Source: Aciditerrimonas ferrireducens (GTDB lineage Bacteria > Actinomycetota > Acidimicrobiia > Acidimicrobiales > UBA8190). From it: 64,000 nucleotides of DNA. The notes beneath the pieces were generated by a model, which saw nothing but the letters and a program-made list of their open reading frames with translations, had not been told where the DNA came from and made no database searches. This document shows positions 53,351 through 59,288 of this stretch, piece by piece (position 1 is the stretch's first letter; every line of letters begins with the position of its first letter). The position numbers and the translations under genes are program-made. The stretch is taken from assembly GCF_023130475.1 (NCBI RefSeq), contig NZ_JAKHEX010000003.1, forward strand, positions 62,001 to 126,000. The letters run 5' to 3'.

Positions 53351-53998
53351 TCAGGCCTTCTTCACCTGGCCGAAACTCGCGGCCCAGTTGGTCACCGAGG
53401 TTCCCGAGCTCGCGTTGCAGCCGGTCGACCCGGTGGTGGTGGTCTCGCCGAAGTAGGTCCCGGCCGTGCCGGGCAGGCCACCGCTACTCGTCGTGCTCGT
53501 CGTCGTGCTCGACGACGTTCCGAACGCCGTCGCCGGCGGCTCCGCCGGGGAGTAGAGCACGAACCAGCACTCGTTCGTCTTCGAGTAGGCCGCCAGGATC
53601 ACCGCGTTCCCGTCACCCGAGGGGTCCACGCTGATGCAGTTCGTGTTCGACGAGGTGCAGGCCGCGCCGGCCGTCCAGGAGAACGTGGGCTCCGAGCTCT
53701 GGAGGCTGCTCTGCAAGGAAGTCGGAAGAGAGGACCCTCCGATGTCGAACGACTGGTTGTTGGACTGGTAGAAGCTCTCCGCCGCCGTCAGGGCGTTGGT
53801 GAGATTCGACTGGGCGGCCCGGTTGTTCGCTGAGCCGGTCACCCCGAGGAACGTCGGGATGGCGATCGCCATCAAGATGGCCAGGATCAGCAGCACCACC
53901 ATGAGCTCGATGAGGGTGAAGCCGGCCTCGGCCGCCTCCTCCCCCTCGATCTCGGGGGCCCGAGCCTGCCTGGCTCGGTCGAGCACCTGCTTGAGCAT
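53351..53998 (-). CDS. Type IV prepilin (major-pilin-like)
   Basis: A 215-residue type IV pilin precursor. The leader is 26 residues, charged, ending EEAAEAG, with cleavage before FTLIELMVVLLILAILMAIA (Glu at +5). The helix is followed by a variable head with Ser/Thr-rich tracts near 160-185 and four or more cysteines (AACTSSNTNC, NECW, STGCN) that may pair. ATG at 53998 has AGGAGG 6 bases upstream. Gap of 212 bases to pilO suggests its own promoter. It forms the pilus with the PilB/T/C/M/N/O genes upstream. Confidence 0.93.
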   Translation of the reverse strand: MLKQVLDRARQARAPEIEGEEAAEAGFTLIELMVVLLILAILMAIAIPTFLGVTGSANNRAAQSNLTNALTAAESFYQSNNQSFDIGGSSLPTSLQSSLQSSEPTFSWTAGAACTSSNTNCISVDPSGDGNAVILAAYSKTNECWFVLYSPAEPPATAFGTSSSTTTSTTSSGGLPGTAGTYFGETTTTGSTGCNASSGTSVTNWAASFGQVKKA

Positions 53999-54210
53999 GG
54001 GTTCCCTCCTTTGGGTCATCAGATGGCAATGCACCTGGTGGCAGCCCATCGGCAATTCCGAAACGCCGCTTGATCTACGGATGCCCACCGATGCGCGGGA
54101 CGATCCCGATCCTGAGAGCCACCGGACGCGCCACCGCCCCACGGGCAACCGATTGCTCGCCCGGTGGGGACCCGCCCGTGCGCGGCGTCGACCAGGACGG
54201 CTGGAGGGCT

Positions 54211-54915
54211 TCAGCCCGCAGCGGCGGCCCCCGCCGTCCCGCCGCTCGCCGTCGTGCTGGCCGAGCACGGGTCTTGCTCGCCGGGGTCGTCGTAGATCTG
54301 GCCGGTCACCTTCACCTCGTAGCCCGGGGACGAGGCCGGAGCCAGGGAGGTCCCGACCACCACGGCGCCGGCGCTCGACCCGCCCGAGGAGCTCGACGGG
54401 GTGCCTTGGCCCTGGCCCGCCAGGTTCACGGCGAAGGACGAGACGGTGAACAGCCGGGGGAAGGCCGAGCCGTCGAGCCCCTTCACGAAGTTCATGACCT
54501 GGCCGAAGGTGCCCACCAGGGTCAAGGTCACCTGGACGGTCTGCAAGCCGTCCTGGGTGGAAGCCGAGCCCCAGGTCAGGCTCGGGATGCTCGGTGCGCC
54601 CGAGGCGCTCGCCAGGGCCCCGACGTCCAGGACGAACTGGCTCTCGTCGAGGGCCGGGGGGATCTCGGCCACGAACCGGGAGTAGGACTGGCAGTTCAGG
54701 ACCTGCTGGTGCTGGTCGTGCTCCAAGGCGAGCAGTTCCGCCTGGAGAGCTTGCTCCTGAGCGCTCAGCTCCTGGCGGGTGGCCTGCAGCTGGGCGGCGT
54801 GGCGACCCTCGGGCAGCACCCAGGCGAGCAGCGCCGCCACGAGCACCACGACGGCCACCAGGGTCACGAGAAGCACATGGCGGTAAGGGTGGAGATGGGC
54901 TCGCAGCTCGGTCAT
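54211..54915 (-). CDS. pilO: PilO-like inner-membrane assembly protein
   Basis: A 234-residue bitopic protein in the PilO position. A short cytoplasmic start, one helix (about 13-35, VLLVTLVAVVVLVAALLAWV), a coiled-coil (about 40-75) and a ferredoxin-like domain (VQVTLTLVGTFGQVMNFVKG) match PilO. The Ser/Gly-rich linker near 175-190 and a C-terminal tail with one Cys are extra. ATG at 54915 is one base beyond the stop of the PilM-PilN gene. PilO and PilN pair to link the cytoplasmic PilM ring to the pilus. Confidence 0.82.
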   Translation of the reverse strand: MTELRAHLHPYRHVLLVTLVAVVVLVAALLAWVLPEGRHAAQLQATRQELSAQEQALQAELLALEHDQHQQVLNCQSYSRFVAEIPPALDESQFVLDVGALASASGAPSIPSLTWGSASTQDGLQTVQVTLTLVGTFGQVMNFVKGLDGSAFPRLFTVSSFAVNLAGQGQGTPSSSSGGSSAGAVVVGTSLAPASSPGYEVKVTGQIYDDPGEQDPCSASTTASGGTAGAAAAG

Positions 54916-54916
54916 C

Positions 54917-57900
54917 TCAGCCGTTCCCCTTCGTGGCGGTGTCAGTCGGGCAGCCGGCGGCTGGGTGCAGCACGTCGTAGCAGCCGTTGGTCGACAGGCT
55001 CGCTGGGCGCAGCACCGGGATGCTTGCCGAGAACGTCACGACCGTCTGGCCGCCACTCGAGGGGCAGGTCGGCCCGGCGGAGGCCGGTGCCCCGAAGAAC
55101 GGCTTGCCGACGTCGCCAATGAAGTCGGCGTAGGGGTTGCACGAGACGTTGCCCTGGTAGGTCCCGGTGACCGTCGCCTGGATGGTGGCGATCTGGCCGG
55201 GGAGGGTGCTCGTGGTGGTGGCGCCGGGGGCCGCGCTGGACTGGGTGGCGGCGGCACTCCCCGAGGCGTCGAGGGCGGTGCCGGTGAAGTCGGTGACCGC
55301 CAGGTTGTCCGGGTTCTGCGCCGCCAGGGCCTGCACCACCGCGTACCAGTCCGGCACGTGGGTGGTCAGGCCCTCCACCTCCCGCTGGGCCACGGCCAGT
55401 CCGTCGGCCACCGCCTGCGCCTTCGAGTACCGGGGCTTCTCGGCGTTCAGCTGGGCGATCTCGCTCCGCAGGGCGGCGACCTGCTCGCTGGTGCGGTGGG
55501 CCTCGTAGGTGCGCCAGCCTCCGAGCCCGAGCACCACGACGGCCGCCGCCACCGCGCCGAGGCTCACCGCCCGAGTCACCCGCCGGATCCGGGCCCGGGC
55601 CAGGACCTCCCCCGGCAGGAGGTTGAACGCCCCGATGGTCCCCGGGGGGGGCGGCAGGGCCAGCCCGATGGGGGCGGCGAGGACCGGGTCGACGCTCCAG
55701 GCCTGCTCCGGGCTCAGCTCCAGGGCCGAGACGTCCAGGCGGGCCAAGGCCGAGACCGGCTGCACGGGCACGCCGAGCGCCAGGTGGAGCCGCTCCTGAA
55801 GGCCTCGAAGCCGAGACCCTCCGCCGGTCAGCACGACCCGGGCCACGGGCTGCCGCCCAGGCAGCGACGCCGCGTACTCCAGCGAACTGCGGACCTCTTG
55901 GACCAGGTCGCCCAGGGCTCCCTGCACCGCCTGCTCGGCGGCCAGGGCCTGCGGCCAGGGCTCCCCCAGGCGCCGCTTCACCGCCTCGGCGTCCGCCATC
56001 GGCAGGTCGAGGGCGCTGGCGATGGCCGCGGTGGCCTGATTGCCGCCGAGGGGAACGGTCCGGACGAACTGGGGGACCCCGGCGTCGTGGACCACCACGA
56101 GGGTCAGCCCCGCCCCGACGGACACCACCGCTTCGGGTTGCCCCAGGGGGTGCGTCGAGTCGACCAGGGCTCGGAGCAAGGCGGCGGGGACGAGGTCCAC
56201 GCTGCTAACCCGCAGCCCGGCCTCCTCGGCCGGTCCGACCACTCCGTTCACCAGCTCCCGGTGGCAGGCCGCGACCAGGACCCGCCGCACCCGACTCCCG
56301 TCCTCGGCTTTCGCCTCGCCCACCACCTTGGCCGAGAGGACCGTCTGCTCGGCCGGGAACGGCACGATCTCCTCGGCCTGGAACCGGATCGCCGCCTCCA
56401 CCTCGCCGTCGGGCACCCAGGGCAGCTCCAGCTCCCGGGTGATCGCCCGCAGCCCCGCCACCCCGAGCACCACGGTGGTGCTGCTCAGCTCGGCGCTCTT
56501 CCAGAGCCGACGCAGCGCGTCGGCCACCGCGGCCCGGTCGACCACCTCGCCGTCGACCACGACCCCCGGCGGGAGGCCGACTTGCCCGAAGCGCAGCAGG
56601 GTCGGCGTGCCCCCTCCGATCTCCACCTCGGCAGCCCGGACCGCTGAGGTGCCGATGTCCACACCCACGACCTGCGCCATGGCCGAACCTCTCGTCCTGC
56701 TCCCTCGCCCTCGACGCGCCCGAGACCTCAGGGGCCCGGCCAGGCCCTCGGCCCGACCGGCACCGGCTGCGGCAGCCCTGCGACCAGTCGTCGCCTCGGA
56801 CCAGCGCCAGATCGCCCCGACGCCGAACCCGACCACCACGGCACTGCCTCCCACCGCGACCAGCCACCAGGTCAGCCACCAGAAGTGCAGCTCGGCCACG
56901 GCCGAGACGGCCAGGGCACCGACGGCGACCGCGCCGAGCGCCAGCCGACCGGCCCGGCCCGCCGCCACGAGCCCCACGGCCAGGGCCGGCCAGAGGTAGT
57001 AGGGGTCCATGACCGACTCCGTCAGGCACCGCAGCTCCAGCCCGACGGCCACCAGCGCCACGACCAGGGCTGGCCGGTCCCGGACGCGCCGGGCCACGGG
57101 CGCGAGGCCAAGGGCCCCGAGCAGGGCGACGACTCGGCCCGGCCCGCCGGCCACCACCTCGTCTCGACCCCGTCCACCGAGGTGCGGGGCCAGCGCGGTC
57201 CAGGGCGTGGGGTGGTCCACCCCCGGGAAGTTCGGCTGGTCGACCACCGCCCGCCAGGTCGCCTGGGGCGCAGCGGCGAAGACCGGCACGAGGAGCACCG
57301 CAGCGGGCAGCGCGGCCCGCACCAGGAACGGGACGAGCCGTTCGACGCCGAGCACCCCGAGGAGGACCGGCACGGCCAGCACCACCAGGGGCTGCACCGC
57401 GATGGCCGCCCCGGTCAGCCAGCCGGCGGCCACCACTCGACCGTCGAGCGCCGCCCCGAGGGCGTAGAGCACCAGGCCGACCGCCACGGCGTCCTCGGGA
57501 TGCCCCCACCAGGCCACCACTGGGAACAGGACTGCCGCCCCGACGACGCCTAGAAAGGCTCGCGTCGCTGACCCGACGTTGAGACGCTCGGCGAGCGCGT
57601 CGAGCGCGACGAGCGCGACGCCCGAGACGGCGACCGCGTACGGCCCGAGCACGAGCCACGCCGTCGGGTGGGGGACCACCAGCGGGAAGTCCGTCGAGAG
57701 CCCGAAGGCGTTCACCACCGCGGCGACCGGCGCGAACAGCAGGGCGGTGCCCGGCAAGGTGACCATGGCGGTCCCCGCCTGGTAGAGGTGGCCGAAGTCG
57801 AGCCAGGCGATCATCTGGCCGTCGCGCAAGGTGCCCCAGATGTCCCCTGGCACCCACCAGACGGTCAGCAGCCGGTGGTGCCTTCCCCGGACGACCAGCG

Positions 57901-58045
57901 GGAACACGAAGGACCGCACGGCCGTGCCCCCGAGGACCAAGGCGGTGCCCAGCCAGGCGAAGCGCCGTTCGAGGGCCCGTCGAACCAGTCCCCGAGCGAC
58001 AGACGCGCTCCCCCGCCGAAGCGACGCCAGCACCCCAGACCCCAC
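54917..58045 (-). CDS. Fusion: polytopic membrane domain (GT-C-like) + PilM + PilN
   Basis: One 1042-residue open frame with three parts. Residues ~1-425 have about ten hydrophobic helices and LRCLTESVMDPYYLWPALAV, which resembles GT-C/GT87-type glycosyltransferases, though this is tentative. Residues ~456-800 are PilM, an actin-like ATPase (VVGVDIGTSAVRAAEVEIG; LTGGGSRLRGLQERL). Residues ~806-1042 are PilN (FNLLPGEVLARARIRRVTRA, one helix, then coiled coil). GTG at 58045 has GAGAGG 6 bases upstream and lies 10 bases after pilC. No stop codon separates the parts, but an ATG at 56680 with GAGAGG 8 bases upstream could also start PilM-PilN alone. Confidence 0.78.
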   Translation of the reverse strand: MGSGVLASLRRGSASVARGLVRRALERRFAWLGTALVLGGTAVRSFVFPLVVRGRHHRLLTVWWVPGDIWGTLRDGQMIAWLDFGHLYQAGTAMVTLPGTALLFAPVAAVVNAFGLSTDFPLVVPHPTAWLVLGPYAVAVSGVALVALDALAERLNVGSATRAFLGVVGAAVLFPVVAWWGHPEDAVAVGLVLYALGAALDGRVVAAGWLTGAAIAVQPLVVLAVPVLLGVLGVERLVPFLVRAALPAAVLLVPVFAAAPQATWRAVVDQPNFPGVDHPTPWTALAPHLGGRGRDEVVAGGPGRVVALLGALGLAPVARRVRDRPALVVALVAVGLELRCLTESVMDPYYLWPALAVGLVAAGRAGRLALGAVAVGALAVSAVAELHFWWLTWWLVAVGGSAVVVGFGVGAIWRWSEATTGRRAAAAGAGRAEGLAGPLRSRARRGRGSRTRGSAMAQVVGVDIGTSAVRAAEVEIGGGTPTLLRFGQVGLPPGVVVDGEVVDRAAVADALRRLWKSAELSSTTVVLGVAGLRAITRELELPWVPDGEVEAAIRFQAEEIVPFPAEQTVLSAKVVGEAKAEDGSRVRRVLVAACHRELVNGVVGPAEEAGLRVSSVDLVPAALLRALVDSTHPLGQPEAVVSVGAGLTLVVVHDAGVPQFVRTVPLGGNQATAAIASALDLPMADAEAVKRRLGEPWPQALAAEQAVQGALGDLVQEVRSSLEYAASLPGRQPVARVVLTGGGSRLRGLQERLHLALGVPVQPVSALARLDVSALELSPEQAWSVDPVLAAPIGLALPPPPGTIGAFNLLPGEVLARARIRRVTRAVSLGAVAAAVVVLGLGGWRTYEAHRTSEQVAALRSEIAQLNAEKPRYSKAQAVADGLAVAQREVEGLTTHVPDWYAVVQALAAQNPDNLAVTDFTGTALDASGSAAATQSSAAPGATTTSTLPGQIATIQATVTGTYQGNVSCNPYADFIGDVGKPFFGAPASAGPTCPSSGGQTVVTFSASIPVLRPASLSTNGCYDVLHPAAGCPTDTATKGNG

Positions 58046-58055
58046 GCCTCGCCTC

Positions 58056-59288
58056 TCAGCTCGTCGGGACGTGCTTGATGTAGTCGAACATGGGCAGGTA
58101 CATGCAGATCACCATGGTCCCGACCCCCGCACCCATGATGACGGTCAGCATCGGCTCGAGCAGCTGGGTCAGGTTGGCCACCGTGGTCTCGACCTCCTGG
58201 TCGTAGAAGTCGGCGGCCTTGCGCAGCATGGCGTCGAGGGCACCGGTCTGCTCCCCAACCTCGACCATCTGGGTCACCAAGCTCGGCACCACCGCCTCGT
58301 GCTCCTTGAGGCAGTCCGCCAGGCTCCGGCCCTCGCGCACCCCGTTCTTCGCCGCCTGGAGCGCGTCGGCCACCACCTGGTTCCCCGAGGTGTCCGAGCA
58401 GATGTCCAAGGACTCCAGGATCGGGACGCCGGCCGCGACCAGCGAGGAGAGGGTCCCGGCGAAGCGAGCCAGGGCCACCTTGTGCAGCAGGGGTCCGAAC
58501 ACCGGGGGCTTGAGCTTGAACCCGTCGAAGGCTCGCCGTCCCCGGTCGGTGCCGATCCAGCGCTTGAAGACCACCAGGGCGAGCGCCAGCACCGCGAGGA
58601 CCACGAGCACCCAGGGGCTCGTCACGATGGCCGAGATCTTCAGCACCGCTTGGGTCGGCCCGGGCAAGGTGGCGTGCAGCTGGGTGAAGATCCGCTTGAA
58701 GATCGGCACCACGAAGACCAAAAGGGCGGTGAAGATGACGATCATCACGCTCAGCACCACCGCCGGGTAGGTCATGGCCGAGCGGATCTTGCGGTTCAGG
58801 GCCGCCTGCTTCTCCATGGTGGTGGCCAGCTGCTGGAGCACCGCGTCCAGGCTCCCCCCGGCCTCCCCGGCCTGGACCATGGTCACGAACAGGTGGCTGA
58901 ACACCTTGGGGTGCTGGGCGCAGGCCGCCGAGAGCGACGAGCCCCGCTCGACCTCGAGCCGGACCTCGCCGAGGACCCGGGCGAGCTCCTTGCTCTCCAC
59001 CTGCGTGGCCAGGATCGCCAGCGACCGGACCACCGAGAGGCCCGAGTCGATCATGGTGGCCAGCTGCCGGGTGGCCACCGCCAGCTCGGCGAGCTTCACC
59101 CGGTTCGTGAGCCCCGGGATGGTGATCTCGGTGCGGGCCGAGAGCCGGGATCGGGGCTTCACCGAGATCGGCAGGTAGCCCATCTCCCGCAGCTTGCCCA
59201 CCACCAGGGACATGGAGTCGGCCTCCAGCTGGCCCTCCACCAGGTTCCCTTGGCGGTCCCGGACCTTGTACTCGAAGGTCAGCGCCAC
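58056..59288 (-). CDS. pilC: Type IV pilus inner-membrane platform protein PilC
   Basis: A GspF-family platform protein, 410 residues, with two repeated GspF domains (about 73-195 and 275-400): LAELAVATRQLATMIDSGLS, LFVTMVQAGEAGGSLDAVLQ, and VALARFAGTLSSLVAAGVPI, MVEVGEQTGALDAML. Three membrane helices lie near 172-195, 222-242 and 378-400. GTG at 59288, 34 bases after pilT. It anchors the PilB/PilT motors. Confidence 0.93.
   Translation of the reverse strand: MALTFEYKVRDRQGNLVEGQLEADSMSLVVGKLREMGYLPISVKPRSRLSARTEITIPGLTNRVKLAELAVATRQLATMIDSGLSVVRSLAILATQVESKELARVLGEVRLEVERGSSLSAACAQHPKVFSHLFVTMVQAGEAGGSLDAVLQQLATTMEKQAALNRKIRSAMTYPAVVLSVMIVIFTALLVFVVPIFKRIFTQLHATLPGPTQAVLKISAIVTSPWVLVVLAVLALALVVFKRWIGTDRGRRAFDGFKLKPPVFGPLLHKVALARFAGTLSSLVAAGVPILESLDICSDTSGNQVVADALQAAKNGVREGRSLADCLKEHEAVVPSLVTQMVEVGEQTGALDAMLRKAADFYDQEVETTVANLTQLLEPMLTVIMGAGVGTMVICMYLPMFDYIKHVPTS

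Follow-up and report, generated by a model that had tools for sequence, protein, structure and literature searches.

On the minus strand of the window, by which we mean the whole analysed stretch of 64,000 nucleotides from Aciditerrimonas ferrireducens, one reading frame of a type IV pilus cluster comprises a polytopic membrane protein, PilM and PilN without an intervening stop codon. This raises the question whether the three parts are one working protein or whether two neighbouring genes have run together. We consider it fairly likely that the membrane protein, here called MEM, is a pilus-linked GT-C-like protein which usually has its own gene, and that the join reflects a recent loss of the stop codon and not a selected tether. 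The window belongs to a single draft assembly (2.65 Mb, 43 contigs, 85% complete) of a genus that is otherwise unsampled.

Gene organization of the pilus locus

The sequence-only reading had claimed an uninterrupted frame separated from pilC by 10 bases, and both statements hold: the frame at 54917–58045(−) leads from a GTG to its stop over 1042 codons with no internal stop, encoding 1042 amino acids, and pilC ends at 58056. The latter gene (58056–59288, minus strand) encodes the platform protein (T2SSF, 7e-65; NF052607, 6e-119). All further features lie on the same strand. Within the long frame we distinguish MEM with ∼12 transmembrane helices (residues 1–410, 56816–58045), a linker (residues 411–455, 56681–56815), the PilM domain (residues 456–797, 55655–56680, starting with the ATG at 56680) and a PilN-like part (residues 798–1042, 54917–55654). 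Downstream follow pilO (54211–54915; PilO, 1.2e-5, above the cut-off) and the gene of the major pilin (53351–54001), the mature part of which consists past the N-terminal helix of 34% Ser/Thr and includes GTSSSTTTSTTSSGG. In the window, pilMN and pilO are thus located between MEM and the pilin gene.

The assignment of PilM is above the curated cut-offs, as residues 461–797 match PF11104 (PilM_2) with 143.5 bits (1e-41, cut-off 27) and TIGR01175 with 183.1 bits (7e-54, cut-off 133). The domain also matches the structures PDB 3jc8, 2ych and 5eou and resembles over its full length the actin-like PilM of Thermus and Myxococcus (PDB 2ych, 3jc8), which in those systems is a standalone protein. A Pfam search gave no PilN match for residues 798–1042. 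We assign them as a predicted PilN from their anatomy and position, namely an FNLLP motif at the start, one transmembrane helix at 823–841 followed by an extracytoplasmic part, and pilO downstream. In the relatives, too, PilM and PilN share one stop-free frame, and a single PilM–PilN polypeptide is reported for the monoderm type IVa pilus system of Clostridioides difficile in a passage of PMC6916266 (citing Melville and Craig 2013). Thus, PilM and PilN are indeed joined, as had been read from the sequence, but the arrangement is not unusual, since it is common to the relatives and reported in C. difficile. That passage does not report a membrane enzyme ahead of PilM–PilN, whereas in the window an upstream gene lacking its stop runs into them.

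The junction between MEM and PilM

We compared the gene boundaries in 17 genomes of the same family. In eight relatives (L032–L038, L040) MEM is located between pilC and pilM and the junction can be read, and in every one of them a stop codon separates MEM from PilM; in seven the two genes are also in different frames. The eighth, G015, which has 58% identity across the whole span, has both genes in the same frame with a TGA 12 bases before the ATG of pilM. Not counted among the eight is G013, where MEM adjoins pilC and the contig ends ahead of the junction. In four family members (G006, G008, G012, G014) pilC is directly followed by pilM with no MEM between them. The comparison had been set beforehand as the test that could refute the fusion, and with stops in all eight relatives a conserved three-part fusion is rejected. 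The position of the pilM ATG is identical in all relatives and is kept in the window, and pilC, MEM, PilM, PilN and pilO each align to their counterparts in a single frame.

The linker itself is open in frame and carries no coding signature. Its position-specific G+C content (∼0.74/0.91/0.66 at residues ∼410–452) departs from that of the MEM core (∼0.81/0.53/0.92), and its in-frame log-likelihood is 18.6 under that of the best other frame, compared to +4.9 to −8.6 for the MEM tails of the relatives. By coding statistics none of the three frames of the linker scores as coding, and a frameshift is therefore not supported by this measure. The closest stop in another frame is a TGA at 56728–56730 (frame +1), which would be the end of MEM if one indel were located upstream. 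With its G+C content of 77.5%, the linker has a composition at which 66% of random sequences of 37 codons would contain no stop, and hence the open frame is only weak evidence for a fusion. As the relatives have a stop at the junction and the linker is without coding signature, a working tether of the three parts, as had been proposed, is not borne out. Long basic tails occur in some MEM paralogues, and the linker, being basic and low in complexity, could be a real MEM tail.

In four relatives an element CTCAAG-N15/16-GCCG is present inside or just past the end of MEM and before pilM (L032:3737(−), L033:2258(−), L034:3799(+), L036:3315(+)), and may be a separate promoter of pilMN in these genomes. 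This element was sought in the linker of the window and is absent there.

An internal ATG with a good ribosome site, allowing PilM–PilN to be made alone, had also been proposed. The ATG at 56680 is in fact preceded by GAGAGG (56688–56693) at a distance of 7 bases, a possible ribosome site for PilM–PilN with a duplex energy of −7.0, and an internal start is plausible. The strength of the site is ordinary, as a duplex energy as good is reached by 22% of the in-frame ATG and GTG codons of the frame, and we rejected it as a strong sign of a second product. The position of the ATG and the Shine-Dalgarno-like sequence are kept as in the relatives, and PilM–PilN is probably still also initiated at its own start codon.

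Nature of the membrane protein

For the MEM of the window, neither Pfam nor NCBIfam gave a match. In the alignment of 29 family members the residues W63, D68, Y88, P98, P135, H182, D185, Q218, R243, Q270, P271, T280, P281, W282 and Y350 are invariant. Hydropathy averaged over the same 29 sequences gives ∼12 helices with basic N- and C-termini, from which both ends of the protein are probably cytoplasmic. The number of helices is within the 8–13 of the GT-C superfamily and, in the predicted topology, the invariant D68 is located in the long first outside loop after the first transmembrane helix; in GT-C enzymes the first extracytoplasmic loop harbors the catalytic acidic residue, for which D68 would be a candidate.

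Two AlphaFold models of MEM built from four sequences are poor (mean pLDDT 53–54). The three best matches to solved structures are GT-C proteins in both models, namely yeast ALG6, GPI mannosyltransferase and ALG12, with probabilities up to 1.00 but E values of at least 0.09 and none at 0.001. PimE (PDB 9dm5) is also among the structural matches, with TM-scores of 0.45/0.52 for a low-confidence model. In profile comparisons with hhalign the probabilities were 43–66% for GT87 and 7–79% for PMT_2, varying with the direction of the comparison, and shuffled or reversed controls remained at or below 1%. MEM is similar to GT87 (PF09594; PimE) in its weak profile similarity, comparable size and topology and the low-confidence structural match to PimE, but it is under the cut-off of that family: the window MEM has no match to PF09594 and one paralogue reaches 20.3 bits versus a cut-off of 25. 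Taking together the conserved residues, the topology, the weak profile matches and the best structural matches, MEM is likely a member of the GT-C glycosyltransferase superfamily. The earlier proposal of a GT-C-like membrane domain within the pilus operon is thereby supported, with the superfamily membership being likely but not established.

Association with type IV pili

MEM occurs in 35 of 298 Acidimicrobiales genomes. A PilM match is also present in 32 of the 35, and 24 of these 32 carry a MEM copy within 20 kb of pilM. Counted by copies, 27 of 56 are within 20 kb of pilM versus ∼2% expected, though the binomial comparison overstates the significance as it counts related genomes as independent; the remaining 29 copies are away from pil genes. 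Beyond the order, a sample of 198 genomes of the phylum gave two further genomes with MEM, one of which matched weakly, and judging from these searches the family appears nearly restricted to Acidimicrobiales. In other families of the order MEM adjoins pilin genes in varied orientation (L116, L118, L120, L121, L122, L123, L124) or is located between pilC and pilM (L112). Since the association recurs in different arrangements, it suggests a working link between MEM and pili and not an inherited gene order. In one genome (G103) three MEM copies stand in a row adjacent to a pilin gene (L121:5024–8931), and the source genome has a second paralogue away from the pilus genes (C1:274113–275327, L002:1384–2757(−)).

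A modification of pilins by MEM, in the manner of TfpW, is plausible by analogy. TfpW of Pseudomonas aeruginosa group IV is described in PMC11841053, where Kus 2008 is cited, as a GT-C enzyme that adds D-arabinofuranose to pilins. TfpW is encoded with pilin genes, as MEM is in several other families of the order, and MEM would likewise be a GT-C-type membrane protein; following that account, arabinosylation of pilin has been demonstrated for TfpW, whereas the role of MEM is a proposed one. The Ser/Thr content of the pilins was rejected as a marker for MEM, as the pilins are rich in these residues whether or not MEM is present at the locus. In the open-access literature we found no publication describing a glycosyltransferase linked to pili in Acidimicrobiia.

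Further observations concern the pilin genes. Upstream of the pilin gene of the window, ATCAAG-N15-GCCGATGGG (54045–54074(−)) resembles a flagellar or WhiG-type promoter, and TAAAG..GCCGAT is in the matching position in L032, L035, L037, L038, L040 and L042. The source genome encodes a FliA/WhiG sigma factor (C9:47070–47741, 270.8 bits) as well as flagellin, and in Rubrobacter and Actinoplanes type IV pili are known to be under WhiG-type control (PMC8325347). In two other Acidimicrobiales families, Rfam models identify c-di-GMP-I riboswitches upstream of pilin genes (L049:817–908(+), L050:6236–6327(−), L050:7082–7173(−)) in the loci searched. Three relatives have two tandem pilin genes downstream of pilO (L035, L040, L041).

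Origin of the joined frame

We suggest that MEM is a GT-C-type protein that is normally encoded by a separate gene in the type IV pilus clusters of Acidimicrobiales and that most likely would take a lipid-linked sugar outside the membrane and modify pilins or another component of the pilus. From its sequence, the single product of pilMN directly downstream is the cytoplasmic PilM ring protein joined to its membrane partner PilN, as in the relatives. In the source genome alone the stop of MEM would have been lost, its former tail and the spacer now being read through into PilM. Given a correct assembly, translation from the MEM start would yield some three-part protein, and PilM–PilN would probably also be made from the ATG at 56680. 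Such an accidental join may be tolerated because the C-terminus of MEM and PilM are both predicted to be cytoplasmic. We prefer a recent stop loss because of the stops in the relatives, the lack of a coding signature in the linker, the frequency at which random sequence of its composition is open, and the conserved pilM ATG.

The same stops in the relatives, in seven of eight cases in a different frame, would be expected if the genes are in reality separate and an indel of 1–2 bases near the end of MEM, arising from a sequencing or assembly error, hides the stop, for example the TGA at 56730. The in-frame coding score of the linker is the worst of its three frames, and an indel within the ∼50 codons that cannot be aligned would escape notice. 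However, with all its frames scoring as non-coding the linker gives no positive indication of a frameshift, the flanking genes from pilC to pilO align to the relatives in single frames, and in G015 MEM and PilM likewise share a frame with only a TGA between them. We regard an indel as less likely than a recent stop loss, and as unlikely overall. The opposite explanation, in which the three-part protein was selected and the GT-like domain is tethered to the PilM–PilN base and thereby modifies pilins where they are assembled, would make use of the 1042-codon frame, of a MEM C-terminus that hydropathy places in the compartment of PilM, of the basic and low-complexity linker and of the fact that MEM and pilM are neighbours across the family. 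It appears improbable to us, as the fusion is absent from all relatives compared, the linker is not an adapted coding sequence, the start codon of pilM was retained and G006, G008, G012 and G014 have no MEM at this site. It is likewise improbable that a pilin-modifying membrane enzyme is covalently part of the PilM–PilN base and couples modification to assembly at one site.

Compatible with the loss of the stop codon is a role of MEM in the synthesis or export of another envelope glycan, with MEM near the pil genes for shared regulation. The 29 of 56 copies that are away from pil genes, one of them in the source genome, would fit this role. Yet nearly as many (27) are within 20 kb of pilM, and in several families MEM is beside pilin genes in differing positions and orientations; we find this role rather doubtful.

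With recent stop loss as the preferred explanation, the fusion is probably incidental, and it is the undescribed MEM family and not the fusion that is worth following. If MEM modifies pilins, the family would represent an actinobacterial route of pilin glycosylation parallel to that of TfpW in Pseudomonas.
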